Shown here in pieces: positions 4,234 through 20,713 of a stretch of DNA of 64,000 nucleotides. The DNA is from Pelagimonas phthalicica. GTDB taxonomy: Bacteria > Pseudomonadota > Alphaproteobacteria > Rhodobacterales > Rhodobacteraceae. The stretch's first letter is position 1; every line of letters begins with the position of its first letter. Position numbers and translations under genes: made by a program. The notes beneath the pieces are model-generated. The model did no database searches. It saw only the letters and a list, made by a program, of their open reading frames with translations, and had not been told where the DNA came from. The DNA lies in NCBI RefSeq assembly GCF_004364805.1, contig NZ_SOAP01000001.1:1-64000 (forward strand), written 5' to 3'.

Positions 4234-5040
4234 ATGCCCGATCTCTTGAAAAAGCCCTTTGGAACCCATGGCAAGGTGCACCAGATCACCCCGGAAAGCG
4301 CAGGCTGGCGCTATGTCGGGTTTGATCTCCACCGTCTACGGGCGGGTGACAAGGTCGCTGAGGCCACCGGTGACAATGAAGTCATTCTGGTCATGGTCGA
4401 GGGCAAAGCCGCGATCACCAGCGCGGGTCAGGACTGGGGTGTGCTGGGCGAGCGCATGAATGTCTTTGAAAAGACACCGCCGCATTGCCTTTACCTGCCA
4501 AATGGCAGCGATTGGGCCGCCGAAGCCGAAACCGACTGCACCATTGCCGTCTGCTCGGCCCCCGGCAAAGGCGGTCACGAAGCGCGCCGGATCGGACCGG
4601 ATGGCATCACGCTGACCGAACGCGGCAAAGGCACCAATACCCGCTATATCAACAATATCGCCATGGAAAACGAAGACTATGCCGACAGCCTTTTGGTGAC
4701 CGAAGTCTTTACCCCGGCGGGCCATTGGTCCTCCTTCCCGAGCCACCGTCACGACGAAGATGATTATCCGCGGATCACCTATCTTGAAGAGACCTATTAT
4801 CACCGTCTGAACCCGGCCAGCGGGTTTGGTATTCAGCGCGTCTATACCGATGATGGCAGCCTGGATGAAACCATGGCCGTGGCGGATGGCGACGTGGTTT
4901 GCGTGCCACGAGGCCACCACCCTTGCGGCGCGCCCTATGGGTTTGAAATGTACTACCTCAACGTCATGGCAGGCCCCCTGCGCAAATGGCGTTTTGTGGC
5001 CGCGCCCGAGGTGGAATGGATCATGGAACGCGACGCCTGA
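4234..5040 (+). CDS. iolB: 5-deoxy-glucuronate isomerase
   Basis: This 268-residue cupin converts 5-deoxy-glucuronate to 5-dehydro-2-deoxygluconate, the substrate of IolC. Metal-binding positions of the KduI/IolB family are present: the HxH pair in FPSHRHDED, the Glu in LEETYYHR and the His in PRGHHPCGAPYG. The length and the conserved MYYLNVMAGP near the C-terminus match IolB. It follows the dioxygenase gene after a stem-loop. A diverged paralogue lies at 10441-11277. Confidence 0.93.
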   Translation: MPDLLKKPFGTHGKVHQITPESAGWRYVGFDLHRLRAGDKVAEATGDNEVILVMVEGKAAITSAGQDWGVLGERMNVFEKTPPHCLYLPNGSDWAAEAETDCTIAVCSAPGKGGHEARRIGPDGITLTERGKGTNTRYINNIAMENEDYADSLLVTEVFTPAGHWSSFPSHRHDEDDYPRITYLEETYYHRLNPASGFGIQRVYTDDGSLDETMAVADGDVVCVPRGHHPCGAPYGFEMYYLNVMAGPLRKWRFVAAPEVEWIMERDA

Positions 5041-5070
5041 TTGCGGAGCAGACACAGAACGAGGCCCGAC

Positions 5071-5850
5071 ATGACTCAACCATTTCAACTTGCCGCCTGT
5101 GCCGAAATGCTTTGGCAGGACAAACCCATCGCATGGCGCGCCGCGCGTTTGACCGAGATGGGGTTTGGGGTCGGACTGTGGAATTGGCCCGACCACGACA
5201 TTGCCAAGCTAGAAGCCGTGGGCGCAAATTACACCATCATGAACGGGTATCTGCAGGGGCGCTTGGCGGATGATGAGGGGGCAGAGATCCTGCTCGCTTC
5301 GGCCAAAGAAACGGTTCAGGTCGGCAAGCGCCTTGGCGTGGATCGCCTGAACCTGCACGGAACCGGACTTGGCGAGGGTGGCATCCCGATCTGGCAACAT
5401 GAGCTGGAAACGGGCGACATGTGGCTCAAGGCGCGTGACAGCTTGATGCGGATCTGTGACCTGGCCGAGGCCGAAGGCGTTGTCTTTACACTGGAAAACC
5501 TGAACCTGCTCGATCATCCCGGTTGCCCTTTCGGGTCAACGGCGGATGTCTTGGCCCTGGTGTCAGCAATTGACCTGCCGCAATTGCGGATCAATCTCGA
5601 CCTCTATCACACCCAAATCGGCGAAGGCGATTTAATCCGCTGGTGCGAGAAATGTCTGCCTTGGATTGGTGAGGTTCAGGTTGCGGATAATCCGGGGCGC
5701 TTTGAACCGGGCAGCGGTGAAATAAACTACACCGCTGTGGCCCGCGCGCTGGCAGAAATGGGGTATCGGGGACCAATTGGGATGGAGGCATTTGCCAAAA
5801 CCGACTCCGAAGCCGCTTTGGAAGCCTTCCGCAAAGCGTTCACCTTGTAA
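5071..5850 (+). CDS. Hydroxypyruvate-isomerase-like TIM barrel (IolI/Hyi type)
   Basis: This 259-residue protein of the xylose-isomerase-like TIM-barrel superfamily resembles hydroxypyruvate isomerase (Hyi) and the inosose isomerase IolI. Visible features are GVDRLNLHGTG, the metal-ligand Glu region VFTLENLNLLDHPGCPF, the strand INLDLYHTQIGEGDL, VQVADNPGRFEPGSGEINY, and a final catalytic-type Glu in GPIGMEAF. The ATG at 5071 is chosen because the family motif FQLAACAEMLW begins right after it; the frame is open back to the iolB stop. It is probably the last gene of the operon. In this setting it may interconvert inososes or handle the C3 product, but sequence alone does not separate Hyi from IolI. 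Confidence 0.8.
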   Translation: MTQPFQLAACAEMLWQDKPIAWRAARLTEMGFGVGLWNWPDHDIAKLEAVGANYTIMNGYLQGRLADDEGAEILLASAKETVQVGKRLGVDRLNLHGTGLGEGGIPIWQHELETGDMWLKARDSLMRICDLAEAEGVVFTLENLNLLDHPGCPFGSTADVLALVSAIDLPQLRINLDLYHTQIGEGDLIRWCEKCLPWIGEVQVADNPGRFEPGSGEINYTAVARALAEMGYRGPIGMEAFAKTDSEAALEAFRKAFTL

Positions 5851-5883
5851 CGTTTCTGTCGCATCGCGTTTGGTTGAAAGCGG

Positions 5884-5939
5884 CCCAATTATCCCTTAGC
5901 AACAAATTGGGTCTTGGAGACGACATGTCCAAGACCCAA
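5884..5939. promoter_or_regulatory. Two inverted repeats upstream of the LacI gene
   Basis: A perfect 12-bp inverted repeat, TTGGGTCTTGGA (5907-5918) and TCCAAGACCCAA (5928-5939), surrounds a 9-nt loop. A second pair, CCCAATT (5884-5890) and AATTGGG (5905-5911), partly shares the same left arm, so the structures are mutually exclusive. They lie between the TIM-barrel gene and the LacI regulator at 5965. They could be a terminator of the iol operon, a leader structure, or an autoregulatory operator. Confidence 0.55.
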
Positions 5940-5964
5940 AATTTCGCTTGGCCAAGGGATTGTG

Positions 5965-6963
5965 ATGGTTGTCACGCTAAAAGACGTAGCAAAACGCGCC
6001 GGCGTCAGCCGCTCGGCCGTTTCGCGCACCTTCACCGAAGGCGCGTCTGTCTCTGCCAAGATGCGTTCCAAGGTCGAAGCGGCGGCGCAAGAGCTGGGCT
6101 ATCACCCCAATGCGCTGGCCTCGAGCCTGACCACCGGGCGGACCAAGTTGATTGGCCTGATCTCCAACAACTTTCACAACCCTTTGTTCCTTGAGGTGTT
6201 CGATCAGTTCACCCGTGGGTTACAGGACAAGGGCCTGCGGCCTTTGCTGGTAAACCTGACCGATGAAACCGATCCGGCGGCCTCGGTCCGCATGTTGCGG
6301 CAGTATTCTGTGGATGGGGTCGTAGTTGCCTCCTCGACCCTGCCCCCCGCCTTTGCGCTTGGGTTTCGCGACGCAGGTATCCCGGTTTTGCACGCGTTTG
6401 GACGCGCCGCCTTTAATCCACAGGTCCATGTGGTTGGGGTCGACAACCAGGAATGCGGTCGCATGGCTGCCAGCGAGCTGATGGCGCGCGGCTATCGCCA
6501 TGTGGGTTTTCTGGGCGGTCCTAAAGAAGCGACATCGACCCAGGATCGCTTGCTTGGCTTTCGGTCCGAAATCGCGCGCCACCCGGATACGCGTTTGGAT
6601 ATCAGCTTTGCCGAGGCTTATTCCTTTGACGCCGGGCGAAAGGAAATGCTGCGCCAGTTAGAAGGCACCCCATGCGAAGCCTATTTCTGCGGCGATGATG
6701 TGCTCTCTATCGGGGCGCTCAGCGCCTTGCAGGATCGAGGGCTATCCGCGCCGCAGGATGTCGGGCTGATTGGATTGAACGATATGGAAATGGCGGGTTG
6801 GGAAAACATCAACCTGACCACCATCCGCCAGCCCATCCCCGAGATTGTCGAGGCTTCGATCGACGTGATGATGGCGATGTTGCAAGACCCGGACAACGCC
6901 CCTGCCGCCCGGATCTTTGAATGTCAGGTCATTGAACGCGGGACCTTGCGACCCCGCGCTTAG
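5965..6963 (+). CDS. LacI-family transcriptional regulator
   Basis: This 332-residue repressor has an N-terminal helix-turn-helix (VTLKDVAKRAGVSRSAVSR, about residues 3-21) followed by the hinge and a periplasmic-binding-protein-like effector domain (LIGLISNNFHNPLF at about residue 62, GVDNQECGRMAA, GLIGLNDMEMAGW). The ATG at 5965 gives the standard start just before the HTH; an in-frame ATG at 5914 lies inside an inverted repeat and has no family support. It lies between the inositol operon and convergent dehydrogenase genes, so it probably controls the inositol genes. A good candidate operator is the 16-bp palindrome at 9351-9366. The effector is unknown. Confidence 0.92.
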   Translation: MVVTLKDVAKRAGVSRSAVSRTFTEGASVSAKMRSKVEAAAQELGYHPNALASSLTTGRTKLIGLISNNFHNPLFLEVFDQFTRGLQDKGLRPLLVNLTDETDPAASVRMLRQYSVDGVVVASSTLPPAFALGFRDAGIPVLHAFGRAAFNPQVHVVGVDNQECGRMAASELMARGYRHVGFLGGPKEATSTQDRLLGFRSEIARHPDTRLDISFAEAYSFDAGRKEMLRQLEGTPCEAYFCGDDVLSIGALSALQDRGLSAPQDVGLIGLNDMEMAGWENINLTTIRQPIPEIVEASIDVMMAMLQDPDNAPAARIFECQVIERGTLRPRA

Positions 6964-6973
6964 GATCGGCCCC

Positions 6974-8131
6974 CTAGCGAAACATTGGAGGCCGGGCATC
7001 GGTCCATTGACCATCCGCCTTGCCACTTTCCGCCACCGCGAAAACTGCCGCCATCGAACGCAGGCCGTCCTCGGCACGCGGATAAAGATCCGCTGCCGGG
7101 TCCATCGGACGCCCGTCCTTTGCGGCCCGTATCGCTTCGGCCAAATCGGAATAGATATTGGCAAAGGCCAGCGGCATGCCCTCGGCATGGCCAATCGTGA
7201 CCCGCGTGGTGCGATCTGCCTCGGGAGACAGGCCCGCTTCGCCGCGCTCAATCACCTGAAGACGTTCGCCAAGCGGCATCCAATACAATTGGTTGGGCTG
7301 TTCCTGCGCCCAGCGCAGCCCACCCTTTTCTCCAAAGACCTGCAGCGTCAGCCCGTGCTGGCGCCCAATGGCAACGGAGGAGGTCCAAAGCCGCCCGACA
7401 GCCCCGCCATCAAAGCGCATATTGACCATAGCGTCATCTTCTAGCTCGCGTGACGCGATGCAGCTTACCGTATCGGCGGACAGCGATTTCAGCTCTTGCC
7501 CGATCACAAAGCTTGCCATGTGCAAAGCGTGAATACCGCAATCGGCAAACTGAGCCGAAACCCCCGCCTGTGCCGGATCATAGCGCCAGCGTACCCGTGG
7601 GTTATCAGCATCCGCCGCATCCGCGTGATGGCCATGGGCGAATTCGGCCTTGACCAGACGGATCGCGCCCAGGTCGCCCCGCGCCACCATCGCCCGCATA
7701 TGGCGCACAAGAGAATAGCCGGAATAGCCGTAATTCACTGCGCAAATGCGGCCGCTGGATTTGGCAATGCGGACAATCTCTTCGCCTTCTTCCACGGTCA
7801 TGGTCATCGGCTTTTCGCAGAGCACGTGAAAGCCAGCTTCCAGAAACGCCTTGGTGATTTCAAAATGCGTGGCGTTGGGGGTTGCGACCGTCACCAGATC
7901 AACCCGATCTTCGCGCGCTTTTTCACCGGCCAGCATTTCCTGCCAATCACCATAAGAGCGATCTGCCGCCAGACCCAGCGTCTGGCCATAGGCCCGCCCG
8001 GTATCGGGGCGATGATCCAACGCTCCGGCGCAGAATTCGAATGCCCCATCCAATCCGGCCCCAAGCCGGTGCGCGGGTCCGATCTGGCTGCCTTCGCCGC
8101 CACCAATCATGCCCCATTTCAACTTTGTCAT
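6974..8131 (-). CDS. Gfo/Idh/MocA-family dehydrogenase (first of two)
   Basis: This 385-residue NAD(P)-dependent sugar/inositol dehydrogenase has the Rossmann motif WGMIGGGEGSQIG at the N-terminus and the conserved EKPMTMT at about residue 107. The substrate-site His lies in QFADCGIHALHM. The start is ATG at 8131, preceded on the - strand by AAGGA; the frame runs 26 codons further upstream without family support. It is co-directional with and downstream of the second dehydrogenase (8212-9315), about 80 bp apart, and converges with the LacI gene. A likely role is oxidation of an inositol isomer or a related cyclitol or sugar; the exact substrate cannot be read from sequence. Confidence 0.88.
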   Translation of the reverse strand: MTKLKWGMIGGGEGSQIGPAHRLGAGLDGAFEFCAGALDHRPDTGRAYGQTLGLAADRSYGDWQEMLAGEKAREDRVDLVTVATPNATHFEITKAFLEAGFHVLCEKPMTMTVEEGEEIVRIAKSSGRICAVNYGYSGYSLVRHMRAMVARGDLGAIRLVKAEFAHGHHADAADADNPRVRWRYDPAQAGVSAQFADCGIHALHMASFVIGQELKSLSADTVSCIASRELEDDAMVNMRFDGGAVGRLWTSSVAIGRQHGLTLQVFGEKGGLRWAQEQPNQLYWMPLGERLQVIERGEAGLSPEADRTTRVTIGHAEGMPLAFANIYSDLAEAIRAAKDGRPMDPAADLYPRAEDGLRSMAAVFAVAESGKADGQWTDARPPMFR

Positions 8132-8211
8132 GGCTGTTATCCTTGTTCCAAGCCAATTCATTCTGTGTCGTGGCGGGCCATCGCATTGATGAGAGCTTGG
8201 CCCGTCCACCT

Positions 8212-9315
8212 TTAGTGGGTCGCGACGTCGACCCAGCTATTGGTCACTGTAGATTCCCAGGCGGCCTCGATCACTTCTGACACGGCCAATCCATCACGGA
8301 AGGTGGGCCAGACCGCGGTCCCAGTCTCAATGGCCTGCAAAAAGTCGCGCGCCTCGATGATAATCTGATCCTGATAGCCGGTGCCATGTCCAGGCCCTTG
8401 GCAAAACGGTTCGAAATCCGGATGCGCTGGCCCGGTCAGGATCTTGCGGAACCCGCGCTGCGCCTCTGGCCCTTCGGCCAGATAGAGCCACAGCGCATTT
8501 TGATCCTCTTGATCAAAGCGGATATGCCCTTTGGTCCCGTGGATCTCATAGGCATAACCCATTTTGCGCCCCGTCGCGATGCGGCTGGAATAGAGATGCC
8601 CCATCACCCCAGATTCAAACCGCAGCATCAGCTGGCTGTGATCGTCATTGGTCACAGCTTGGCCGGAGCGCTCAGAATGTACCGTTTCGATATCCGCCAT
8701 GACCCGCGCCACAGGCCCCATCAGGGCCAAGGCGGCGTTGATCGGATGCGGAGCCAGGTCGCCCATATTGCCATTGGCCAAACCTTCGCAGCGCCAGTTA
8801 AAGGGCAAAGCAGGATCCGCCAGGAAATCCTCGGTCATTTCGCCCCGGAAATAGGTTACGTCGCCAATCGTGCCCTCAGACAAAAGCTGGCGGGCAAACT
8901 GACTGGCGGGTGTGCGAATATAGTTGAAACCAACCATATTGACGACCCCTGCCTTTTCGGCGGCTGCCACCATGGCGCGGGCGTCTTTGATGCTGGCGCC
9001 CAGGGGTTTTTCGCACAAAACTGGCTTACCCAGTTCAAATGCAGCCTCGGCAATGGCGCGATGGGTTTCTTGCGGTGAGGCAATCACGATGGCCTCAACC
9101 TTTGGGTCCTGAACCAACTGCTGCCAGCTCTCTGCTGCACGTGCGAATCCAAAAGCTTTGCGATAGCGCTGCGCCGATTCCACTGACCCCGCTGCCACCA
9201 TTTCCAGCCTTGGACGCAGCTTGGTATTGAACACCGCCCCGACTGAAGACATGGCGACAGCATGGGCTTTGCCCATATATCCGCCCCCGACAATACCTAT
9301 TCCCAATTCCGTCAT
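8212..9315 (-). CDS. Gfo/Idh/MocA-family dehydrogenase, inositol 2-dehydrogenase-like
   Basis: This 367-residue protein has the N-terminal dinucleotide fold IGIVGGGYMGKAHA, the family signature CEKPLGAS at about residue 99, and the catalytic His region DLAPHPINAAL. The C-terminal GTGYQDQIIIEARDFL resembles dehydrogenases found in inositol clusters. It is the first gene of a leftward pair and diverges from the kinase gene at 9449. The shared 130-bp promoter region carries a perfect LacI-type palindrome, which ties the pair to the same regulator. It probably performs the first oxidation of inositol (IolG role) or of a stereoisomer. Confidence 0.88.
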   Translation of the reverse strand: MTELGIGIVGGGYMGKAHAVAMSSVGAVFNTKLRPRLEMVAAGSVESAQRYRKAFGFARAAESWQQLVQDPKVEAIVIASPQETHRAIAEAAFELGKPVLCEKPLGASIKDARAMVAAAEKAGVVNMVGFNYIRTPASQFARQLLSEGTIGDVTYFRGEMTEDFLADPALPFNWRCEGLANGNMGDLAPHPINAALALMGPVARVMADIETVHSERSGQAVTNDDHSQLMLRFESGVMGHLYSSRIATGRKMGYAYEIHGTKGHIRFDQEDQNALWLYLAEGPEAQRGFRKILTGPAHPDFEPFCQGPGHGTGYQDQIIIEARDFLQAIETGTAVWPTFRDGLAVSEVIEAAWESTVTNSWVDVATH

Positions 9316-9350
9316 GACCCCTCCCCTGGTTCAGTGTCGGAAAACAATTC

Positions 9351-9366
9351 TTGCAACCGGTTGCAA
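9351..9366. promoter_or_regulatory. LacI-type operator palindrome
   Basis: TTGCAACCGGTTGCAA is a perfect 16-bp palindrome with the central C/G step typical of LacI-family operators. It lies in the divergent promoter region between the dehydrogenase gene (start 9315, -) and the kinase gene (start 9449, +). A second, shorter palindrome, CTTGCGCAAG, is at 9389-9398. The LacI regulator encoded at 5965 is the obvious candidate ligand. Confidence 0.75.
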
Positions 9367-9448
9367 AATAGGTAGCTTGAGACTAGGACTTGCGCAAGAC
9401 GCAAATTAATCCGCTGCCGGATTTTATGCGTTGCAAGAGGGAGGAAAC

Positions 9449-10429
9449 ATGGCAGACCTTAATCGCCTTGGCGAAAACCGTTTTCTTGTTCTGGGCCGCG
9501 CCGGGATGGATCTTTATCCGGATCCGCCTGGCACCAGTATCGAAGAGGCTCGACGCTTTACCGCCTGTCTGGGTGGATCCTCGGGCAATATCGCAGCGGG
9601 CCTGGCCCGGCACGGCGCTCAGGTTGCTTTGGTCACCCGCGTGTCGCAAGACCCGGTTGGCCAGTTTTGCCTGAAAGAATTGGAAAGCTACGGTATTGAG
9701 ACCAGTTACGTGACGACCAGCACTGGTGAAACGCGCACATCGCTCGCCCTGGCTGAATCCCGTCTGGAGAACCATCAGGCGGTCTTGTACCGCAACGGTG
9801 CCGCCGATTTCGAGATGTCTGCTGAGGACGTTCAAAAGATCGATTACACACGCTTTTCCGCGCTGATCGCCACGGGCACCTGCCTGGCAGCCGAACCATC
9901 GCGCAGCGCGACATTCAAAGCCTTTGAGATGGCCAGCGCCGCTGGCCTTCCGGTGATCTTTGACATTGATTACCGCCCCTATAGCTGGCCCTCTGCGGAC
10001 ATTGCAGCCGAGACCTATTCGCGCGCCGCAGACCTGTGCGACATCATTATCGGCAATGATGTCGAATTCGGCTTTATGGCCGGAGATTATGATCAGGGGC
10101 TGGCCAAGGCGCGGCAATTGGCAGCCGACAGCGCGCAGATCGTCGTCTACAAGATGGGCGAAAAGGGTGCGATCACCCTGACCAAAGCCGGCGAGACCCA
10201 AACCGGCATCTTCCAGGTCCAGGCCCTGAAACCTGTCGGTGCCGGAGACGCCTTTATGGGCGGCTTTGTCGCTTCGCTGGCTGCCGGTCATTCGGTGAAA
10301 GATGCCGTCACGCGCGGGTCGGCCTGCGCCTCTATCGTCGTCTCGCGCGTCGGCTGCGCCCCGGCCATGCCCACACCTGCCGAACTATCGGACTTCCTGA
10401 ACACCCATCCCGGCCCCACTTTGCCCTGA
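9449..10429 (+). CDS. iolC: 5-dehydro-2-deoxygluconokinase (PfkB family), stand-alone
   Basis: This 326-residue ribokinase-family kinase has the N-terminal FLVLGRAGMDLYPD and the PfkB signature 1 region CLGGSSGNIAAGLARHG. The C-terminal signature 2 is KPVGAGDAFMGGF, with the catalytic Asp and anion-hole glycines. FDIDYRPYSWPS is typical of IolC. The ATG at 9449 is preceded by GGGAGGAA; an in-frame upstream ATG at 9431 is unlikely. Unlike the protein ending at 189, it has no DUF2090 extension and is instead followed by a separate aldolase gene, so this is a second kinase for the inositol lower branch or for a related sugar acid. Confidence 0.88.
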   Translation: MADLNRLGENRFLVLGRAGMDLYPDPPGTSIEEARRFTACLGGSSGNIAAGLARHGAQVALVTRVSQDPVGQFCLKELESYGIETSYVTTSTGETRTSLALAESRLENHQAVLYRNGAADFEMSAEDVQKIDYTRFSALIATGTCLAAEPSRSATFKAFEMASAAGLPVIFDIDYRPYSWPSADIAAETYSRAADLCDIIIGNDVEFGFMAGDYDQGLAKARQLAADSAQIVVYKMGEKGAITLTKAGETQTGIFQVQALKPVGAGDAFMGGFVASLAAGHSVKDAVTRGSACASIVVSRVGCAPAMPTPAELSDFLNTHPGPTLP

Positions 10430-10440
10430 AAGGATCACCC

Positions 10441-11277
10441 ATGCACATCGCCCCCTATGACAATGCAAATGCGCCCATCGTTGATGTCGACAGTGATCTG
10501 GTGCCGCTGAACTATTTCAACATCGTCAAACTGAAACACGGCGAGGCGTTTGAATATCAGGTTCCGGGCTATGAAACCTGCATCGTACCCGCCACCGGGA
10601 CCGTTGATGTCGATGTCGAAGGCGTGTCCTTTGCCAAGCTTGGCAATCGCGGTGAGGATGTCTGGGATGGCGATCCCGAAGGTGTCTATGTGCCGGTCGG
10701 TGCCAAAGTGACCATGTCCTGTGTTTCTGAAGACACCGAAGTCTTTGTCGCCGGGGCGAAATATGACAAGGTGCTCGATCCTTTTGACGTGCGCCAGCAT
10801 GACCTTGTTCAATACGGCTCGGACGACACCAAAACCCATCGCAAGATCAAACACATCCTGGGCCAGAAACAACATGACAAGGTCGGGCGGCTTTTGGTCA
10901 GCGAGTTGTATACCGTCGGCACCGGCGGCTGGTCCGGCTTTCCAAGCCATAAGCACGACACCAACCGTCTGCCCGACGAAACCCGCCATGACGAGACATA
11001 TAACTTCCGCTTTAAGCCCAACCACGGCTCGGGTCTGCAAATGCTGCAACGTGAGGATAACAAGCCCGGTGACGCCTATCACATCGTCGATGGCTCCACC
11101 GTTGTAATCGACAAGGGGTATCACCCCTGCTGCGTGCTGCCGGGTTATGAGATGTATTACTTTACCATTCTGGGCGGGCTGACCCAGCGGTCGCTGGTGC
11201 AATATTTCCAGCCGACCCATGCCTATCAGATCGAAACCATTCCTGGCATCAAAGACATGATTGCGAAATTCAAATGA
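10441..11277 (+). CDS. IolB/KduI-family isomerase, second copy
   Basis: This 278-residue cupin is related to IolB. The metal site is recognisable as FPSHKHDTN (HxH), HDETYNFRF (Glu) and DKGYHPCCVLPGYEMYYF (His). Outside these motifs it differs strongly from the copy at 4234-5040, so it is an old paralogue rather than a recent duplication. It sits 11 bp after the kinase and overlaps the aldolase gene by 4 bp (ATGA), forming a compact isomerase-kinase-aldolase unit. It may be a second 5-deoxy-glucuronate isomerase or may act on a different uronate. Confidence 0.85.
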   Translation: MHIAPYDNANAPIVDVDSDLVPLNYFNIVKLKHGEAFEYQVPGYETCIVPATGTVDVDVEGVSFAKLGNRGEDVWDGDPEGVYVPVGAKVTMSCVSEDTEVFVAGAKYDKVLDPFDVRQHDLVQYGSDDTKTHRKIKHILGQKQHDKVGRLLVSELYTVGTGGWSGFPSHKHDTNRLPDETRHDETYNFRFKPNHGSGLQMLQREDNKPGDAYHIVDGSTVVIDKGYHPCCVLPGYEMYYFTILGGLTQRSLVQYFQPTHAYQIETIPGIKDMIAKFK

Positions 11278-12116
11278 GCATTGCGACCCTTTCTGACGTC
11301 CTAAAACCCGCCATGGCCGAGGGCTACGCGGTGGCCGGACTTGTTTGTCTCGGCTGGGAGGAAATGCGCGCCTATGTCGAGGCGGCCGAGCATGAACAGG
11401 TTCCGGTCATCCTGCAGGCGGGGCCCTCTTGCCGTGAACATACCCCCCTGCCCGTTCTGGGCAAGATGATGCGGCACCTGGCCGATGCCGCGTCAGTTCC
11501 GGTCGTCGTGCATCTGGATCATGGATATCAGTTGGAGGAGTGTCAGCAGGCTCTGGACAGTGGCTTTACCTCGATCATGTATGACGGATCGCGCAAAGCG
11601 CTGGCGCAAAACATCAAGGAAACCGCAAGAATCGCCGAGATGGCCCATCGCGCGGGTGCGTCCTGCGAGGGGGAGATCGGATTTGTCGGCTATGATGGCG
11701 GTGAGCAATCCGCCGGTACCGATCCCAGCGAGGCTGCAGAGTTCGCCAAGGCAAGCGGTGTGGATGCCATGGCGATCTCGGTTGGAAATACCCATTTGCA
11801 ACAAGGGGCTGGCAAAGGCCTGGACGAGGCCCGCATTCGCGCCATTGAAAGCGTGACCAACCTGCCATTGGTGATACATGGCGGCTCTGGCGTGCCAGCC
11901 GCCCAGCGCAAATTTCTGGCGCGCGGCTCGCGGATCTGCAAATTCAACATCGGAACTGAGCTGCGCATGGCTTTTGGCGCAGCCCTGCGCGAGGCTGTGA
12001 CCCGCGACCCATCGCGGTTTGATCGGGTCTCAATTCTAAAGGAAACACATGATCCGGTGGTTGCAGCGGCGCGGCAAGTCTTGCAAAACTTCAAACCTGC
12101 CCAGATAACGGCGTAA
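11274..12116 (+). CDS. Class II aldolase (IolJ/FbaA type)
   Basis: This 280-residue Zn-dependent class II fructose-bisphosphate-aldolase-family protein has the metal-binding strand VVHLDHGYQLEECQQALDSGF with SIMYDGS. It also has EGEIGFVG, SVGNTHLQ (where many relatives have GTxHG), LVIHGGSGVP and CKFNIGTELR. In this position it is expected to cleave 2-deoxy-5-keto-gluconate 6-phosphate to dihydroxyacetone phosphate and malonate semialdehyde (the IolJ reaction), the step assigned to the fused DUF2090 domain in the other set. The altered GNTHL motif may mean a shifted substrate. The start ATG at 11274 overlaps the preceding stop. Confidence 0.85.
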   Translation: MSIATLSDVLKPAMAEGYAVAGLVCLGWEEMRAYVEAAEHEQVPVILQAGPSCREHTPLPVLGKMMRHLADAASVPVVVHLDHGYQLEECQQALDSGFTSIMYDGSRKALAQNIKETARIAEMAHRAGASCEGEIGFVGYDGGEQSAGTDPSEAAEFAKASGVDAMAISVGNTHLQQGAGKGLDEARIRAIESVTNLPLVIHGGSGVPAAQRKFLARGSRICKFNIGTELRMAFGAALREAVTRDPSRFDRVSILKETHDPVVAAARQVLQNFKPAQITA

Positions 12117-12130
12117 CACCACCCCGCGAG

Positions 12131-12140
12131 TTTCGCGCAA
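12131..12140 (+). promoter_or_regulatory. TTTCGYGCAA motif upstream of the MHYT-LytTR gene
   Basis: TTTCGCGCAA at 12131-12140 matches 9 of 10 bases of the TTTCGTGCAA core that is directly repeated at 13327-13336 and 13348-13357. It lies about 75 bp before the regulator start. I see no second copy one or two helical turns away, so it is a weaker candidate site than the pair in front of coxM. Confidence 0.4.
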
Positions 12141-12196
12141 GACCAGCAGTGATACCTCAAAAAACAACCATATGTAGTTTGCAATAATTCCAAAGC

Positions 12197-12213
12197 GCGG
12201 GCATCTTGCCCGC
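12197..12213 (+). promoter_or_regulatory. Hairpin abutting the start codon of the CO regulator
   Basis: GCGGGC (12197-12202) and GCCCGC (12208-12213) form a perfect 6-bp GC stem with a 5-nt loop. The stem ends exactly at the base before the ATG at 12214. No Shine-Dalgarno sequence is visible, because the hairpin occupies that place. It could limit translation of the regulator or mark a leaderless or atypical initiation. Confidence 0.45.
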
Positions 12214-13341
12214 ATGGAAACCCTGCCCTTTACTCACAGCGCCTTTCTGACGGCGATGGCTGGCCTTGTTGCCCTGGTCTCTGGCTTTACCGGCCTGTCC
12301 CTGACCAGAGACCTGTCCAGCAAGACGATGTTTGACAAGAAGGTGTCGATTGCCCTGGCATCCATCGCCTTGGGTGGTGGTATTTGGGCGATGCATTTCA
12401 TCAGCATGCTTGGGCTACAACTGCCCATTCTGTTCTTCTATGATGCGGCAATCACACTGATCTCGGCATTAACCGCGATCCTGATCGTCGGCGCTGCGCT
12501 GATCCTTTTGCATTTCACCAATCGAACGCCGTTGGTCATCACCTTGGCCGGAGCGGTGCTCGGCATCGGCATTCTGGTGATGCACTATATCGGCATGGCA
12601 GGGCTTGAGCTGTGCCGCGCGATCTACACCCCGTTTGGCCTGTTGGTATCCTCGATCCTGGCGGTTGGGCTATGTATCCTGGCCATCTGGGTCGCCTATG
12701 GCGAGCGGACCAACCGAAATATCGTCCTTGGAACGCTGTGCTTTGCCATGGCGGTTTGCTCGGCGCATTTCCTGGCGATGTTTGGCACCGCCTTTCAGGC
12801 TCTGCCCGGGGCAAATGAGTTCGGGCCGCGCATGGATAATGAAACATTGGCGCTCGGGGTAATTCTGTTCAGCTTTGTCATTTTCGGGGCCTGCTTGTGG
12901 GTCAGTGTGACCTACCTCGTTCCTTCTACGCAGCAGGAAGAGGTGGCATTGCCCGCTGCCCGCCCCAAAGCCGAACCAGCCCCACCTTTGCTACAGATCC
13001 CCTGCGAACGCGACGGCGGCAAGGTCTTTATCGCTCCGGCCGAAGTGCTGTTTGTCCGTGCGGACGGCCACTACACCCAAGTCTACACCCAGACCGAACG
13101 CCTGTTCTGTGTCTGGCCTGTAACCGAAGCCTCAAAGCGGTTGGAGCCGCTGGGATTCCTCAAGACACATCGCAGTTATCTGGTGAACCCGACCTATGTG
13201 GTGCGCTTTGAGCGTAACAAGGACAAGGGGCGCTGCATCTTTGATGGCGACTCTGTCCCGCCCGCCCCGGTGAGTCGCTCAAAGCTGCGCGATATTCAGG
13301 ACGCCTTGGCGGCGCAGGTCGGTGCATTTCGTGCAACCTAG
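12214..13341 (+). CDS. MHYT-LytTR membrane regulator (CoxC/CoxH-like)
   Basis: This 375-residue protein combines a multi-spanning MHYT membrane sensor domain (roughly residues 8-245) with a C-terminal LytTR DNA-binding domain (roughly 265-370). Three MHYT-type motifs are seen, MHFISM, MHYIGM and AHFLAM; in this family their Met/His residues are proposed to bind a metal such as copper and thereby sense a diatomic gas. The LytTR part has EVLFVRADGHYTQVYT and FLKTHRSYLVNP. The same architecture is found in CoxC and CoxH of Oligotropha carboxidovorans. Its place directly before coxM and the direct repeats at 13324-13357 make it the likely CO-responsive regulator of this operon. The ligand is inference. 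Confidence 0.88.
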   Translation: METLPFTHSAFLTAMAGLVALVSGFTGLSLTRDLSSKTMFDKKVSIALASIALGGGIWAMHFISMLGLQLPILFFYDAAITLISALTAILIVGAALILLHFTNRTPLVITLAGAVLGIGILVMHYIGMAGLELCRAIYTPFGLLVSSILAVGLCILAIWVAYGERTNRNIVLGTLCFAMAVCSAHFLAMFGTAFQALPGANEFGPRMDNETLALGVILFSFVIFGACLWVSVTYLVPSTQQEEVALPAARPKAEPAPPLLQIPCERDGGKVFIAPAEVLFVRADGHYTQVYTQTERLFCVWPVTEASKRLEPLGFLKTHRSYLVNPTYVVRFERNKDKGRCIFDGDSVPPAPVSRSKLRDIQDALAAQVGAFRAT

Positions 13342-13357
13342 CGCGCATTTCGTGCAA
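13324..13357 (+). promoter_or_regulatory. Direct-repeat LytTR-type binding site upstream of coxM
   Basis: GCATTTCGTGCAA occurs twice without mismatch, at 13324-13336 and 13345-13357. The start-to-start distance is 21 bp, two helical turns. The first copy overlaps the last codons of the MHYT-LytTR gene (stop at 13339-13341); the second is about 95 bp upstream of the coxM start. Paired direct repeats with about 21-bp spacing are the known architecture of LytTR binding sites. I could not assign a convincing -10 element downstream. Confidence 0.6.
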
Positions 13358-13452
13358 AACACTTGTTTTCCATGCATTTTTAAAAGCCAGCCCTAAGTGC
13401 TGCATGCTCACTTCCCCATAGCCAGAACATTCGCTTGAAGGGAGGAGAGCCG

Positions 13453-14307
13453 ATGATTCCAGCGGCATTCGAGTATTACAGGCCCACGGATTTAGCCGGT
13501 GCCCTGTCCATTCTAGAGGAGCACGGCGATGATGCGCGCGTCATGGCGGGCGGTCACAGCCTGATCCCGATGATGAAGCTGCGCATGGCCGATGTGCCCC
13601 ATCTGATCGACCTTCAGGATGTCGAAGGTCTGGGGGGTATTGAGGTTTCAGGTGACAGCATTCGCCTGGGCGCAATGGTCACCCAATCCGACATCATCAA
13701 CCACGCCGCCCTGACCGAGGCGGCACCCATCCTGCGCGAAGCGGCGCTGCAAATCGCAGATCCGCAAGTGCGTTATATGGGCACTGTTGGCGGCAATGTT
13801 GCCAATGGCGATCCCGGCAATGACATGCCCGGTCTCATGCAATGTCTGGATGCGTCTTTCACTCTTGTAGGCCCGGATGGTTCCCGTGAGGTCGACGCCC
13901 GTGAGTTTTATGAGGCGGCTTACATGACCGCCCGCGAGGACGAAGAAATTCTCACCGCTGTCACCATTCCGCTGCCAAAGGGCGGCTATGCCTATGAAAA
14001 GCAAAAGCGCAAGATTGGCGATTACGCCACAGCGGCGGCGGCGGTTCAATTGGTCAAGGATGGCGAAAGCTGCTCAGCCGCATCGATCGCGATGACCAAT
14101 CTCAGCGACACGCCGGTTTATTGCGAAGCAGCGGGTGCCGCATTGGTCGGCACCACGCTGGATGACGCAGCCATCAAGGCCGCTGTCGCGGCGATGTTGG
14201 GCGGGATTGACCCATCCGAAGACAATCGCGGCCCCATCGCCTTTAAAACACATGTGGCGGGCGTGATCCTGCGCCGCGCCATCGAACGCGCCTGGTCGCG
14301 CGCATAA
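13453..14307 (+). CDS. coxM: CO dehydrogenase medium subunit (FAD)
   Basis: This 284-residue flavoprotein subunit of the aerobic Mo-Cu CO dehydrogenase passes electrons from the [2Fe-2S] clusters of CoxS to FAD and on to the quinone pool. FAD-binding motifs are [15 protein letters not shown] (about residue 32) and [18 protein letters not shown] (about residue 110), both characteristic of CoxM. The ATG at 13453 is preceded by GGAGGAG; an in-frame ATG at 13435 has no such support. It is the first gene of coxMSLDEFG, 111 bp after the MHYT-LytTR gene. Confidence 0.95.
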
Positions 14308-14321: not shown

Positions 14322-14816
14322 ATGTCCAACAAAATGCACATCAAGATGACCGTGAACGGCAAGGAAGAGGAATTCCTCGCCGAACCGCGCGAATTGCTGA
14401 TCTATACGCTGCGCGAGCGGCTTAACATCACCGGGCCGCATATCGGCTGCGACACCTCGCATTGCGGGGCCTGCACTGTGACGCTGAACGGCAAATCGGT
14501 GAAATCCTGCACAATGTTTGTGGCGCAGGCCAATGGGGCCGAGGTCACCACCATCGAAGGGCTTGGCACGCCGGATGACCTGAACCCGCTTCAGGCTGCG
14601 TTCAAGGAACATCACGGGTTGCAATGTGGGTTCTGCACGCCGGGCATGATCACCCGCGCGTCCAAGCTGCTGGAAGAAAATCCAAACCCGACAGAAGAAG
14701 AAATCCGCTTTGGCATGGCCGGCAATATCTGCCGCTGCACCGGGTATCAGAACATCGTGAAATCCATTCAGGCGGCAGCCGCCGAAATGGCCAGTGCCAA
14801 GGAGGCTGCGGAATGA
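14322..14816 (+). CDS. coxS: CO dehydrogenase small subunit (2x[2Fe-2S])
   Basis: This 164-residue iron-sulfur subunit has the plant-ferredoxin-type cluster motif [11 protein letters not shown] with a fourth Cys in KSC near residue 65. The C-terminal cluster motifs CGFCTPGM and CRCTGY are also present. All eight cluster cysteines can be located. It overlaps coxL by 4 bp (ATGA), as is usual for translationally coupled subunits of this heterotrimer. Confidence 0.95.
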
Positions 14817-17236
14817 AGGACGAAATCACACGCGACGACCGCGTCGCCAATCTTAAGGGTATGGGATGTTCGCGCAAGCGCGTCGAAGATGCCCGCTTTA
14901 CCCAAGGCAAGGGCAATTATGTCGATGACATCAAGTTGGATGGCATGTTGTTCGGCGACTTTGTCCGCTCTCCCTATGCCCATGCCAGAATCAAGAATAT
15001 CGACATTTCCGCTGCTATGGAGGTGCCTGGTGTTCTGGCGGTTCTGACAGCCAAGGATCTGGAGCCGCTGGGCCTGCATTGGATGCCGACATTGGCAGGC
15101 GACAAGCAGATGGTGTTGGCCGATGGCAAAGTGTTGTTCCAGGGCCAAGAGGTGGCCTTTGTCGTGGCCGAAGATCGCTATGCCGCCGCTGATGGCATCG
15201 AGGCGGTCGAGGTCGATTACGAAGAGCTTCCGGTGATTGTAGACCCGTTCGAAGCACTGAAATCAGACGTTGTGCTGCGCGAAGACACGGTTCAGGACGG
15301 CAAACCCGTCGATGGCGCACATGGTCCGCGCAAACATCACAACCACATCTTCACCTGGGAAGCAGGCGACAAGGAACCTACAGAAGAGGTCATCGCAAAT
15401 GCCGAAGTGGTCGCAGAAGAGACCATGTATTACCACCGTACCCACCCCTGCCCGCTGGAAACCTGCGGCTGCGTGGCGTCGATGGACAAGGTCAATGGCA
15501 AGCTGACGCTTTGGGGCACCTTTCAGGCACCACACGCGATCCGCACCGTGGTCAGCCTGATCTCTGGCATCGAAGAGCACAATATCCGAGTGATCTCGCC
15601 CGATATTGGTGGCGGGTTTGGCAATAAGGTTGGTGCCTATCCCGGCTATGTCTGTTCGGTCGTGGCCTCTATCGTGACGGGCAAGCCGGTCAAATGGATC
15701 GAAGATCGCATGGACAATCTGATGACCACGGCCTTTGCCCGTGACTATTGGATGACCGGCAAGATCTCGGCCACCAAAGAGGGCAAGATCACCGGGCTGC
15801 ATTGTCATGTGACGGCCGATCACGGCGGCTTTGACGCCTGCGCCGACCCGACCAAATTCCCGGCCGGGTTCATGAATATCTGCACCGGGTCCTATGACAT
15901 CCCCACCGCCTTCCTTGAGGTGGACGGTGTCTATACCAACAAGGCCCCCGGCGGGGTCAGCTATCGCTGCTCCTTCCGCGTCACCGAAGCGGTCTATTTC
16001 ATCGAGCGCATGATCGAAGTGCTGGCGATCAAGTTGGATATGGACGCGGCTGAGCTGCGCCGGATCAACTTTATCAAGAAAGAACAATTCCCGTACAAGG
16101 CCGCGCTAGGCTGGGAATATGACAGTGGCGACTATCACACCGCTTGGGACAAGGCGCTGAAGACCGTCGATTACGATGGGCTGCGCGCCGAACAAGCCCA
16201 GCGGGTTGAGGATTTCAAGGCGGGGAAAACTCGGTCCCTGATGGGCATTGGCCTGTCGTTCTTTACCGAGATTGTCGGCGCTGGCCCGGTCAAGAATTGC
16301 GATATTCTCGGGCTTGGCATGTTTGACAGCTGCGAGATCCGCATTCACCCAACCGGGTCGGCGATTGCCCGTCTGGGTACTATTTCACAAGGACAAGGAC
16401 ACGCGACTACCTTTGCGCAGATCCTCGCCTCAGAAATCGGGCTGCCCGCAGATAGCATCACGATTGAGGAAGGCGACACTGACACGGCCCCCTATGGTCT
16501 GGGCACCTATGGCTCGCGCTCTACGCCTGTCGCAGGCGCTGCTACGGCCATGGCCGGGCGCAAGATCCGTGCAAAGGCGCAAATGATCGCGGCCTATCTG
16601 CTTGAGGTGCATGACGATGACGTTGAATTCGACGTGGATCGGTTTGTGGTCAAAGGCGCGCCTGAGCGGTTCAAGACGATGAAGGAAATCGCCTTTGCCG
16701 CCTATAATCAGGCCATTCCTGGCATCGAGCCCGGGCTTGAGGCGGTCAGCTATTATGACCCGCCCAATATGACCTACCCGTTCGGGGCTTATGTCTGTGT
16801 CATGGATATTGACGTCGACACCGGCGTGACCGACATTCGCCGTTTTTACGCGCTGGATGATTGCGGCACCCGGATTAACCCGATGATCATCGAGGGCCAG
16901 GTCCATGGCGGATTGACCGAAGCGCTCGCCGTCGCTCTGGGACAAGAGATTGCCTATGACGATATGGGCAATGTGAAAACCGGGACCTTGATGGACTTCT
17001 TCCTGCCCACCGCCTGGGAGGTGCCCAATTACGAAACCGATTACACCGTCACCCCGTCGCCGCATCACCCAATCGGTGCAAAAGGCGTTGGCGAAAGCCC
17101 GCATGTGGGTGGTGTGCCCTGTTTCTCCAACGCCGTGCAGGATGCGTTCCGCGCCTTTGGCAACACGCATACCAATATGCCGCATGATCATTGGCGGATC
17201 TGGAAAACCGCCAATGCCCTTGGCCTGCACGACTAA
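14813..17236 (+). CDS. coxL: CO dehydrogenase large subunit, form I (Mo-Cu)
   Basis: This 807-residue molybdopterin subunit oxidises CO to CO2. The form I active-site loop is present as SYRCSFR with the Cu-ligand Cys at residue 386, and the catalytic Glu lies at residue 761 in KGVGESP. These align with Cys388 and Glu763 of the 809-residue Oligotropha carboxidovorans enzyme, so this is a bona fide CO dehydrogenase and not a form II (AYRGAGR) relative. The first residue of the signature is Ser where Ala is usual. The start ATG at 14813 overlaps the coxS stop; the longer frame upstream is a shadow of coxS. GGGFGNK and [10 protein letters not shown] cofactor motifs are intact. Confidence 0.97.
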
Positions 17237-17282: not shown

Positions 17283-18158
17283 ATGACATGGACCGAATTA
17301 CAGACCTCGCTGGGGGGTGACGGATATGTTGCATCCGATGACCTTGCCGTCGCGCTGCAACTGGCACTGTCTCTGGGCCGCCCCTTGCTATTGGAAGGCG
17401 CGGCAGGTGTGGGCAAAACCGAAGTCGCCCGCGCCCTGGCCACCACCCAAGATGCCAAGCTGATCCGCTTGCAATGCTACGAGGGGTTGGACGCTTCGCA
17501 GGCGATTTATGAATGGAACTATCAGCGCCAATTGCTGACCATTCGAGCCGCGGCCGAAGATGGAGAGACCGGGAAATCGGTCGAGGCCCGGATCTTTTCC
17601 CGCGACTTCCTGCTTGAGCGCCCGCTCTTGGCGGCTATCACCCAAGACACACCGCCCGTTCTGTTGATCGACGAGATCGACCGCGCGGATGAGGAGTTTG
17701 AGGCCTATCTGCTGGAAATCCTGTCGGATTTTCAGGTTTCGATCCCTGAACTGGGCACCATCACAGCCACGTCGCGCCCGATTGTCATCCTGACCTCAAA
17801 CGGCACCCGTGATCTGTCCGACGCGCTGCGGCGGCGGTGTCTTTATACCTATGTCGATTACCCCGACCGCGCGACCGAATTGGCGATCCTCAAGGCCCGC
17901 TGCCCCGAGGTTGAAGCGCAATTGGCGGAGCAGATCATTGGCTTCGTACAAACCCTGCGCAAAGAAGAGCTGGAGAAAGTGCCCGGCATCGCCGAAATGC
18001 TGGATTTTGCTGCGGCGCTGATGGGCTTGGGCATTGCCGATCTCACAAGCTCGCCCGATGTGTTGCAATCGACCCTGACCACCCTGCTGAAAACCCAAAG
18101 CGATCAGGCGCAGATCACTCGTGATGTCGCCGCACGCATCGCGGGCAAGGCCGCATGA
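17283..18158 (+). CDS. coxD: MoxR-type AAA+ ATPase for CO dehydrogenase maturation
   Basis: This 291-residue AAA+ ATPase has Walker A EGAAGVGKTEVARAL at about residue 40, Walker B LLIDEIDRADEEFEAYLLE at about residue 123 and sensor 1 ILTSNGTRDLSDALRRR. In Oligotropha, CoxD acts with CoxE and CoxF to insert sulfur and copper into the [CuSMoO2] cluster of CoxL. Length and neighbours match. No clear Shine-Dalgarno sequence precedes the ATG at 17283, which follows a stem-loop. The 3' end overlaps coxE by 4 bp. Confidence 0.93.
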   Translation: MTWTELQTSLGGDGYVASDDLAVALQLALSLGRPLLLEGAAGVGKTEVARALATTQDAKLIRLQCYEGLDASQAIYEWNYQRQLLTIRAAAEDGETGKSVEARIFSRDFLLERPLLAAITQDTPPVLLIDEIDRADEEFEAYLLEILSDFQVSIPELGTITATSRPIVILTSNGTRDLSDALRRRCLYTYVDYPDRATELAILKARCPEVEAQLAEQIIGFVQTLRKEELEKVPGIAEMLDFAAALMGLGIADLTSSPDVLQSTLTTLLKTQSDQAQITRDVAARIAGKAA

Positions 18159-19342
18159 GCCGGGTCACGAAATTCGCCTCGCGCGATCCCGGGCCCACGG
18201 CGCGGGTGGTGGGGTTTGTCGCCCATCTGCGCGAAAACGGTCTACGTTTGGGGGTGGGTGAGGCCGAGCTCGCCTTGCGCGGGTTGGCCCAAACGCGGGC
18301 GGTGACCCATCAAGATTGCCGCCGTACCCTGCGCGCCATCTGCACCGGCTGTAAAGACGAAATCGAGCGGTTTGACGCCTTGTTTGACGCCTATTGGCTG
18401 GATGCCGGGCGGGTCAAACAAAAGGTCATTCCCAAACCGCAAACCCCGATCAATGACAGCGTGCATTCCAACCGCGACCGCGCTGAGCAAGACGCGCAAA
18501 GCGGCTTATCTGGCTCGGCCACCGCTCCGGATGATGGCCAGGGTGAGGCCGATGGCGATGGCACCGGCAAGCTGATCGCCACAATGCAACGCCAGCTGTC
18601 GCGTCAGGATCTGCGCGACCTTGTCCGCCCCGAAGACATTGCCGCTGCGGAAAAGGTTGCGCTCAGGCTTGGCGCGGCCTTGCGTGATCAAAGATCCCGC
18701 CGCCGCATAGCCGCGTGCAAAGGGGATCGCCTGCATTTTCGCAAAACCATCCGCCGCAGTTTGGCCACTGGGGGCGAGCCGCTGCATCTTTTGCGCAAAC
18801 GCCGCCCGGATCGTCAGCGCAAGATTGTGGCCCTGTGTGACGTATCGGGATCCATGAGCCTTTACGCCCAGGTGTTTCTGGCCTTTCTTGCCGGGCTCAT
18901 GCGGGCCGACAAAGATGCGGATGCCTACCTGTTTCACACCCGCCTTGTGCGCATCACCGAGGCCCTGCGCGACAAAGACACGATGCGCGCCATTGGCCGT
19001 ATGTCCATGATGGCGGACGGGTTTGGCGGAGGTTCCAAGATCGGACCGTCGCTGCAACGCTTTGCCGACACCTATGCCAAACGCTTTGTCGATGGGCGCA
19101 GCGTGGTGATGATCCTGTCCGATGGCTATGACACCAGCCCGCCCGAAGAACTGAGCAAAGCCTTGCAAAAGCTGAAGAAACGCGGCTGCACGATCATCTG
19201 GCTGAACCCCCTTAAGGGATGGAAAGACTATGCGCCCATCGCCTCGGGCATGGCCGCTGCCCTGCCCTGGCTTGACCTGTTTCAACCCGCCAACACTCTG
19301 GCCGATCTGGCCAGTCTCGAAAAGGAGCTTGCCGCCCTATGA
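18155..19342 (+). CDS. coxE: VWA-domain protein CoxE
   Basis: This 395-residue partner of the AAA+ protein has a C-terminal von Willebrand factor A domain. The MIDAS motif is CDVSGSMSLY (about residue 230), with a later ILSDGYDTSPPEE. The N-terminal half is rich in charged residues, with the conserved R(T)LRAICTGCKDEIERFDALFDAYW-like segment split here as RAICTGCKDEIERF and DALFDAYW. MoxR/VWA pairs work as metal or cofactor insertion machines; in cox operons this one serves maturation of the CuMo site. It overlaps both coxD and coxF by 4 bp. Confidence 0.92.
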   Translation: MSRVTKFASRDPGPTARVVGFVAHLRENGLRLGVGEAELALRGLAQTRAVTHQDCRRTLRAICTGCKDEIERFDALFDAYWLDAGRVKQKVIPKPQTPINDSVHSNRDRAEQDAQSGLSGSATAPDDGQGEADGDGTGKLIATMQRQLSRQDLRDLVRPEDIAAAEKVALRLGAALRDQRSRRRIAACKGDRLHFRKTIRRSLATGGEPLHLLRKRRPDRQRKIVALCDVSGSMSLYAQVFLAFLAGLMRADKDADAYLFHTRLVRITEALRDKDTMRAIGRMSMMADGFGGGSKIGPSLQRFADTYAKRFVDGRSVVMILSDGYDTSPPEELSKALQKLKKRGCTIIWLNPLKGWKDYAPIASGMAAALPWLDLFQPANTLADLASLEKELAAL

Positions 19343-20136
19343 AACCGCAAACCATCCTGGATTTCGAATTCGGCAAAGTTGTTGAGGAGCTTGGCGCGCG
19401 CCAACAACCTTTTGCCTGCGCCACAATTGTGCGCTCCAGCGGCGCGACCGCGGCCAAGGCCGGGGCCAAAGCCATCTTGGCAGCTGATGGCACCATCCTG
19501 CATGGCTGGCTCGGCGGCGGTTGCACCCGTGGCGCTGTGAAACGATTTGCCGTGCAGGCGCTGAAAGATGGCAAACCGCAAATGGTTTCCATCGCGCCAG
19601 AAGAGCAGCTAGAGGCGCTGGGGGTCGCGCCGGGGGATGAGGTCGATGGCACCCATTTTGCCCGCAATGGCTGCCCCTCTCGCGGCACGATCGATGTGTT
19701 CATCGAACCCTATTTGCCGCAGGCGGAATTGGTGATTCTGGGGGCTTCGCCCGTGGCCAGAGCGCTGGCATCTCTGGCCCCCTCCCTTCATTGGAGCGTC
19801 ACAGACAGTGTGACCGCCAAAACCGCCCCCGCACAGCAGCAAGTCATCGTCATTGCCACCCAAGGCCAAGGTGATCTGGATGCGTTAAAATCCGCCCTGT
19901 CTGGAACGCCCGACTATGTTGCCTTTGTCGGCAGCGCACGGAAATACGCGATGCTGGCGGACAAATTGTCAGAGGTCGGCTTTCCCGACGCAGCCATCCA
20001 GGCGGTGAACTCCCCGGCTGGTTTGAACCTTGGTGCAATCACACCCGAGGAAATCGCTCTCTCGATCCTCGCGCAACTGGTGCAGCACCGCCGCCAAAAC
20101 ACCCAACCCGGAACCGAACAAGTCACGGACGTTTGA
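19339..20136 (+). CDS. coxF: XdhC/CoxI-family maturation protein CoxF
   Basis: This 265-residue XdhC-family protein has the N-terminal CATIVRSSGATAAKAGAKAI and GWLGGGCTRGAVKR. The C-terminal Rossmann-like half has LVILGASPVARALASLAP and YVAFVGSARK, and it ends in the conserved NSPAGLNLGAITPEEIALSILA. XdhC relatives bind the molybdenum cofactor and assist sulfuration before insertion; in cox clusters this role is assigned to CoxF. It overlaps coxE by 4 bp and is followed by a small ORF and coxG. Confidence 0.9.
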   Translation: MKPQTILDFEFGKVVEELGARQQPFACATIVRSSGATAAKAGAKAILAADGTILHGWLGGGCTRGAVKRFAVQALKDGKPQMVSIAPEEQLEALGVAPGDEVDGTHFARNGCPSRGTIDVFIEPYLPQAELVILGASPVARALASLAPSLHWSVTDSVTAKTAPAQQQVIVIATQGQGDLDALKSALSGTPDYVAFVGSARKYAMLADKLSEVGFPDAAIQAVNSPAGLNLGAITPEEIALSILAQLVQHRRQNTQPGTEQVTDV

Positions 20137-20147
20137 AAGGAACCCAC

Positions 20148-20249
20148 ATGGCAGCCCTGAAATCTCTCTTCTCTCGTCTTGGTCGCAAAATGGCGATGAA
20201 ACCCGAACAGGCCGAATTGATCGCAAAAATCAAATTTCCCTGTTGTTAA
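20148..20249 (+). CDS. 33-residue small protein between coxF and coxG
   Basis: A short frame begins with ATG at 20148, 11 bp after coxF and preceded by GAAAGGA, and ends in TAA at 20247-20249, 11 bp before coxG. It encodes 33 residues: a basic amphipathic N-terminus (KSLFSRLGRK), MKPEQAELIAKIK and a C-terminal FPCC. It is below usual gene-calling limits, but the ribosome-binding site, the tight spacing on both sides and the vicinal C-terminal cysteines suggest that it is real. Metal or thiol chemistry in Cu/S insertion is a possible role; no function is known to me. The alternative is fortuitous spacer. Confidence 0.6.
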   Translation: MAALKSLFSRLGRKMAMKPEQAELIAKIKFPCC

Positions 20250-20260
20250 AAGGAAAAAAC

Positions 20261-20713
20261 ATGGAACTTTCAGATGAAATCACCATCGCAGCGCCGCTTG
20301 AGCAGGTCTATGCCGCGTTGAACGACCCAGAGGTGCTGCAAAAATGTATTCCCGGCTGCGAGGAACTCATCAAGCATAGCGATACCGATTTGGAAGCCAA
20401 AGTCGTGCTTAAGGTCGGGCCGGTCAAAGCCAGATTTGGCGGCACTGTCGAACTGGATACCAGCGGCGCACCCAACGCCTTTTCCCTGACAGGTCAAGGG
20501 AATGGCGGCGCAGCAGGTCATGCCAAAGGCGGGGCCGATGTCACCCTGACCGCTGATGGCGACACAACGATTCTGCGCTATGACGCCAAGGCCGACATTG
20601 GCGGCAAGATCGCCCAGCTTGGCAGCCGCTTGATCCAAAGCACGGCCAAGAAACTGGCGGCGAAATTCTTCAAATCCTTCGCGGATCACTTTTCCGAAGA
20701 AATTGCAGCCTAG
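20261..20713 (+). CDS. coxG: CoxG, SRPBCC-family membrane-association protein
   Basis: This 150-residue SRPBCC (START-like) protein begins MELSDEITIAAPLEQVYAAL and has the family-typical DPEVLQKCIPGCEEL and the C-terminal GGKIAQLGSRLIQSTAKKL. CoxG is described as recruiting CO dehydrogenase to the cytoplasmic membrane, near the respiratory chain, and as a quinone-binding helper in related organisms. The start ATG at 20261 has AAAAGGAAAAAAC upstream. A longer in-frame extension upstream overlaps coxF and the small ORF and is rejected. It is the last recognisable cox gene here. Confidence 0.92.
   Translation: MELSDEITIAAPLEQVYAALNDPEVLQKCIPGCEELIKHSDTDLEAKVVLKVGPVKARFGGTVELDTSGAPNAFSLTGQGNGGAAGHAKGGADVTLTADGDTTILRYDAKADIGGKIAQLGSRLIQSTAKKLAAKFFKSFADHFSEEIAA

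Follow-up and report, generated by a model that had tools for sequence, protein, structure and literature searches.

CoxC of Afipia carboxidovorans was described in 2024 as a CO sensor and repressor that resides in the membrane and depends on copper; the paper presents it as the first MHYT protein with a demonstrated role in transcriptional regulation and CO sensing (PMC11347149). It binds three TTNNNGCN repeats at the promoter PcoxB and is released from them by CO, and copper is needed. In the accessible text of that paper, PcoxB is the only promoter tested in A. carboxidovorans, the operator is reported to lie at the gene that opens the cluster, and coxM is mentioned twice, each time within coxMSL where the cluster is described. 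The accessible parts of PMC3091675 and PMC6011924 name CoxC and CoxH just as putative CO sensors or in signal transduction. CooA of Rhodospirillum rubrum is likewise a single-component regulator that responds to CO and controls genes for CO oxidation. RcoM regulators are soluble and carry a haem-binding sensor domain of PAS fold. For RcoM1 of Paraburkholderia xenovorans, a LytTR domain controls the aerobic cox genes through triple direct repeats of TTCNNGCA with 12-13 bp between them, and RcoM1 and most LytTR regulators are described as binding upstream of the -35 element and activating transcription (available text of PMC11347149).

The coxC gene and its repeats in the window

The DNA analyzed (the window) is a stretch of 64,000 nucleotides from Pelagimonas phthalicica. 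The plus-strand gene at 12214-13341 encodes a coxC orthologue, a membrane protein of 375 amino acids in which an N-terminal MHYT domain is fused to a C-terminal LytTR domain (Pfam PF03707, 7e-29; PF04397, 9.4e-16), in agreement with the MHYT-LytTR gene of the original prediction. It aligns with A. carboxidovorans CoxC along its length, at 31% identity over 400 aligned positions. With six candidates scored in each search, window CoxC was the only match to its own sequence and the only LytTR-domain protein found in its genome. The LytTR domain alone had no match in the PDB at E 0.01. No PAS domain was detected at E 0.001 and no CRP-type domain was among the Pfam domains listed, the DNA-binding domain being LytTR. 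The protein had been proposed to differ from CooA and RcoM, and the sequence supports this: CooA is a CRP-type helix-turn-helix protein with haem that has neither LytTR nor MHYT, RcoM1 is an activator with a haem sensor domain, and the window protein by contrast is a membrane MHYT sensor (PMC11347149, accessible part).

Members of the CoxC subfamily are expected to have three MHYT motifs that supply Met, His and Tyr for copper. Window CoxC has its MHYT motifs as MHFI at residue 60, MHYI at 123 and AHFL at 184. In an alignment of 68 rows, all 57 rows that have residues at the first two motifs carry their Met and His, and the His of the third is kept in 58 of 58 (column 185). The Met of the third motif is present in only 8 of 58 (column 184), residue 184 being Ala in the window protein and mostly Val in its relatives. 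This replacement, like the 31% identity, distinguishes window CoxC from the A. carboxidovorans protein, and since the third-motif Met is usually replaced in Rhodobacteraceae CoxC, CO sensing here may differ from that of the prototype.

As in A. carboxidovorans OM5, the MHYT-LytTR gene lies directly upstream of coxMSL, with coxMSLDEFG following immediately 3' on the same strand. These genes are coxM, the first of the presumed controlled operon (13453-14307; Pfam FAD_binding_5, CO_deh_flav_C), coxS for the iron-sulphur subunit (14322-14816; Fer2_2, Fer2), coxL for the aerobic CO dehydrogenase large subunit (14816-17236; NCBIfam TIGR02416, 1403 bits against a cut-off of 991), and the maturation genes coxD, coxE, coxF and coxG (17283-20713; AAA_5, VWA_CoxE, XdhC, COXG). 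We take coxL to be form I from the YRCSFR motif in its translation, and the letters D, E, F and G are presumed from gene order. Upstream of coxC, on the plus strand at 183-12116, are genes resembling those for myo-inositol use: an iolC-like gene above its cut-off, an iolB-like gene below its own, a class II aldolase, a TPP enzyme and a LacI regulator. A [NiFe]-hydrogenase island on the minus strand (21477-40950) adjoins the cox cluster and makes the genes for CO and H2 oxidation neighbours; it encodes large and small subunits, HypD, HypF, a maturation protease, an AIRS protein read as HypE, a second hydrogenase-like large subunit, a sigma-54 activator and a PAS histidine kinase.

The sequence GCATTTCGTGCAA occurs exactly at 13324-13336 and again at 13345-13357, with a start-to-start distance of 21 bp and cores of TTCGTGCA at 13328-13335 and 13349-13356. 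Repeat 1 lies within the last codons of coxC (stop codon TAG at 13339-13341) and repeat 2 directly past the stop. This pair, on which the original prediction was built, is the sole exact direct repeat of at least 13 bases at offsets of 14-40 in the 64-kb window, and such repeats numbered 0 in 30 first-order Markov simulations. The pattern TTCGTG-N13-16-TTCGTG has one match in the 4.89-Mb genome, at the coxC-coxM site; the reversed-pattern control also matched once, and thus this count is weak evidence alone. A third copy, which the original prediction had missed, is present as the degenerate repeat GTTTTCCATGCA at 13365-13376, with the weaker core TCCATGCA at 13369-13376, 20 bp past the core of repeat 2. 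The loose triple pattern TTCNNGCA/TTCNNGCA/TYCNNGCA was matched twice in the genome (at the coxC-coxM site and once on contig C2) and its control was not matched. A direct-repeat array of LytTR type, with three repeats at 13324, 13345 and 13365 that are predicted to form an operator, is present by sequence, which bears out the proposal of a paired LytTR-type site with 21-bp spacing before coxMSL. The window core equals the TTCNNGCA motif of RcoM1 and fits the TTNNNGCN motif of CoxC, as both motifs are given in PMC11347149. A scan of 12050-13460 gave no sigma-70-like promoter (0 matches; shuffle mean 0.8), nor was a convincing -10/-35 pair in line with the repeats seen by eye.

A further core match, TTTCGCGCAA at 12131, had been taken as a sign that CoxC may regulate its own gene. 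The match is present but unremarkable: with as many as 3 mismatches allowed, the 13-mer has 23 matches in the window where 31 are expected. When the 300 nt upstream of coxC were searched for the best pair, 0 of 67 loci reached a score of 19, compared to 5 of 1340 shuffles. Self-regulation of coxC through this site is not supported, as pairs upstream of coxC score at shuffle level and none is conserved.

Conservation of the repeat pair upstream of coxM

Conservation was examined in a sample of 295 genomes of the window's family, with CoxC called at E 1e-30. CoxC was present in 67 of these genomes, the window's included, which gave 68 loci; a coxM start was found next to coxC in 65, and the remaining three (L055, L063 and L067), with no coxM start in reach, were dropped. 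A repeat pair scoring at least 19 of 24 was detected in 64 of the 65 coxC-coxM loci, compared to 6 of 1300 shuffles, which like the other shuffles used to judge repeat scores preserve base composition only, and 0 of 453 coding windows. The one miss (L066) scored 18, two loci scored 19 and one scored 20. The pair was spaced by 21 bp in 36 family loci and by 20 bp in 28. The pair consensus was written after the family loci had been viewed, and a second set of named loci was therefore scored. This set consisted of 55 of 68 named loci, after removal of 12 that were identical upstream to the family set and of L109, which had no coxM start. All 55 scored at least 21, with a spacing of 21 bp in 53 and 20 bp in 2. 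The two sets together represent relatives rather than independent lineages, and among these relatives with the same gene order the pair is kept as the original prediction required.

The third repeat, at a score of at least 8, was found at +20 in 22 of 64 family loci and at +21 in 14 of 64 (a locus may count twice), the remaining offsets being occupied mostly in 0-3 of 64 and a few in up to 9. For the named loci, +20 was used in 35 of 55 and +21 in 6 of 55, with 0-2 of 55 at the other offsets tested (14-26). Repeat 2 is the best-conserved copy in an alignment anchored on repeat 2, where 9 of its first 12 columns carry at least 1.6 bits across 64 loci that were themselves selected by score for the same motif.

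The distance from repeat 2 to the coxM start has a median of 109 bp (quartiles 107-113, SD 8.4, n = 64; 180 nt upstream searched), while that to the coxC stop has an SD of 52 (n = 60). Measured to the coxM start, repeat 2 is 103-145 bp upstream in 63 of 64 loci and 89 bp upstream in the remaining one. In three genomes where coxC and coxM are apart, the pair stays upstream of coxM in all three: coxC is 3.7 kb from the repeats in G007 and about 31 kb off in G279, with the pair just 5' of coxM in both, and in G557 coxC is about 12 kb 3' of coxM and the pair starts 170 bp before coxM. Based on the steady distance to coxM and the retention of the pair at coxM in these separated clusters, the repeat element is, as judged from sequence, part of the coxM promoter region.

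The repeats were also compared to the presence of CoxC. The strict pattern CGCANYTCGTG-N8-10-CGCANYTCGTG was detected in 40 of the 295 family genomes. CoxC is present in every one of these 40, and the pattern was found in 0 of the 228 genomes outside the 67 with CoxC; the reversed strict pattern was found in 0. The strict pattern itself was missing in 27 of the 67 coxC genomes, including that of the window, where the pair escapes because its first copy begins TGCA. As coxL is present in 72 of the 295 genomes and all 67 CoxC genomes are among these, the co-occurrence of CoxC and repeats is confounded when taken alone. Five clusters of cox genes without an adjacent coxC were read, and the clusters of G008, G102, G110 and G633, at or near contig ends, were left out. 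Four of the five had no pair: G083 (p 0.30), G597 (p 0.86), G629 (p 0.97) and the second cluster of G476 (p 0.87). Both kinds of cluster occur in G476, and its cluster beside CoxC (L162) holds the pair. The fifth, from the CoxC-less G109 (L179), has a weak, half-matching pair (p 0.008) and is ambiguous; in this genome a LytTR domain is found on another contig, in a different protein with hydrophobic stretches by eye. No LytTR domain was detected in G083, G597 or G629, which have cox genes and no repeats, the G629 assembly being 83% complete.

Distant junctions and the coxM region of A. carboxidovorans

A distant set of 12 coxC-coxM junctions was assembled from 3 hand-picked plasmid loci (H6, H8 and H10 of 98 records) and 9 of 23 matches. 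Among the other 14 matches, L164 and L172 were already in the family count and ten were without coxM; L157 and L166 had no coxM in reach, and their coxM regions were examined as L182 and L186. A pair was found in 11 of the 12 junctions at p of at most 0.004 (500 shuffles), with that of L161 at 328 bp before coxM, and L158 was at chance (p 0.516). By a weight-matrix model of the triple, all 12 junctions scored above 100 of 100 shuffles, one site of the three being poor in some, most clearly in L162. The pair of G363 (L186), examined separately, had p 0.002.

The pHCG3 plasmid of A. carboxidovorans (L148) carries GTATTTCGTGCA at 8225, GCTTTTGGTGAC at 8245 and ATGTCTGGTGCG at 8265 before coxM. 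These three repeats (8225-8276) lie between coxC and coxM in an exact 20-bp register, and the third is weak. Since only PcoxB is tested in the accessible part of PMC11347149, the coxC-coxM repeats of A. carboxidovorans look like an operator that was likely overlooked. A search of titles and abstract openings, with most subscription journals and RcoM papers outside its range, found no print on a coxM operator. The window site resembles the published one in being a direct-repeat site that fits TTNNNGCN and differs from it in lying at coxM rather than coxB (PMC11347149, accessible part). The two also differ in register. Repeat 1 of PcoxB, placed from the published primer, is TTACCGCC, and by a placement that uses this primer and the next TTNNNGCN motifs at gaps of 18-21 bp, successive PcoxB repeats would start at intervals of 29 and 26 bp, compared to 20-21 bp for the window repeats (PMC11347149). 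A GCAGTTCATGCG/GCCGTTGGTGGA pair spaced by 21 bp near PcoxB (L148, 5185 and 5206) scored 18 of 24 and was rejected, because shuffles and coding windows also reach 18.

A predicted CoxC operator and its alternatives

We consider it highly probable, from the sequence comparisons above, that the repeats represent a CoxC operator at the coxM promoter that is conserved across alphaproteobacteria. The LytTR domain of membrane-bound CoxC would bind three direct repeats, two of them strong and one weak, with an operator consensus of about GCAWTTCGTGCA and repeats 20-21 bp apart, a distance that would put them on the same side of the helix. If window CoxC works as its A. carboxidovorans counterpart does, its MHYT domain would sense CO through copper, and CO would release CoxC from the DNA such that coxMSLDEFG is expressed. 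Binding, the response to CO, and repression rather than activation are what we infer for this system.

The most serious alternative, which we hold possible though less probable than repression, retains the same operator and makes CoxC an activator that depends on CO and binds upstream of the promoter, the mode described for RcoM. The position of repeat 2 at 103-145 bp before coxM in nearly all loci would leave space for a downstream promoter, the third repeat is the weakest and is the one closest to coxM, and the mode of action would be that of RcoM1 and most LytTR regulators. By contrast, the sole CoxC studied in PMC11347149 is a repressor, and no promoter could be placed between 12050 and 13460. 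That the repeats are bound by a regulator other than CoxC is improbable. CoxC and coxL nearly always co-occur in the family, which would allow the site to go with cox rather than with CoxC, and G109 has its weak pair without CoxC; yet both core and spacing are those of LytTR sites, CoxC is the one LytTR protein seen in the window genome, four of the five clusters that have no coxC beside them lack the repeats, and in three of those genomes no LytTR domain was detected. We regard it as very improbable that the pair is conserved through coding constraint on the CoxC C-terminus or by chance. Repeat 1 of the window does lie within the last coxC codons, but in other loci both repeat copies are intergenic, and the coding reading is rejected by the clusters in which coxC is kilobases away (G007, G279 and G557), where the pairs sit no more than 170 bp before the coxM start. 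Chance is opposed by the shuffles and coding windows, which rarely or never reach the scores of the pair.

Returning to the predicted CoxC operator, the idea of a membrane MHYT-LytTR sensor of CO is already known as CoxC, published in 2024 (PMC11347149, accessible part). Thus, the proposal that a membrane sensor switches coxMSL is strengthened by the site, its placement and its conservation and is not new. What is new is the conservation test, the place of the operator before coxM, its consensus and a copy in A. carboxidovorans that was likely overlooked. On balance we lean, with little conviction, towards the coxC-coxM junction and its 20-21-bp array as the ancestral and main CoxC operator of alphaproteobacteria, of which the A. 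carboxidovorans coxM copy would have been overlooked and PcoxB would be secondary. The operator suggests that the regulatory model of A. carboxidovorans should add a second promoter, that of coxM. The conserved coxM operator would provide a consensus site for CoxC. Aerobic CO oxidation is common in marine roseobacters, and the operator consensus would let one predict which bacteria control this process by a membrane sensor.
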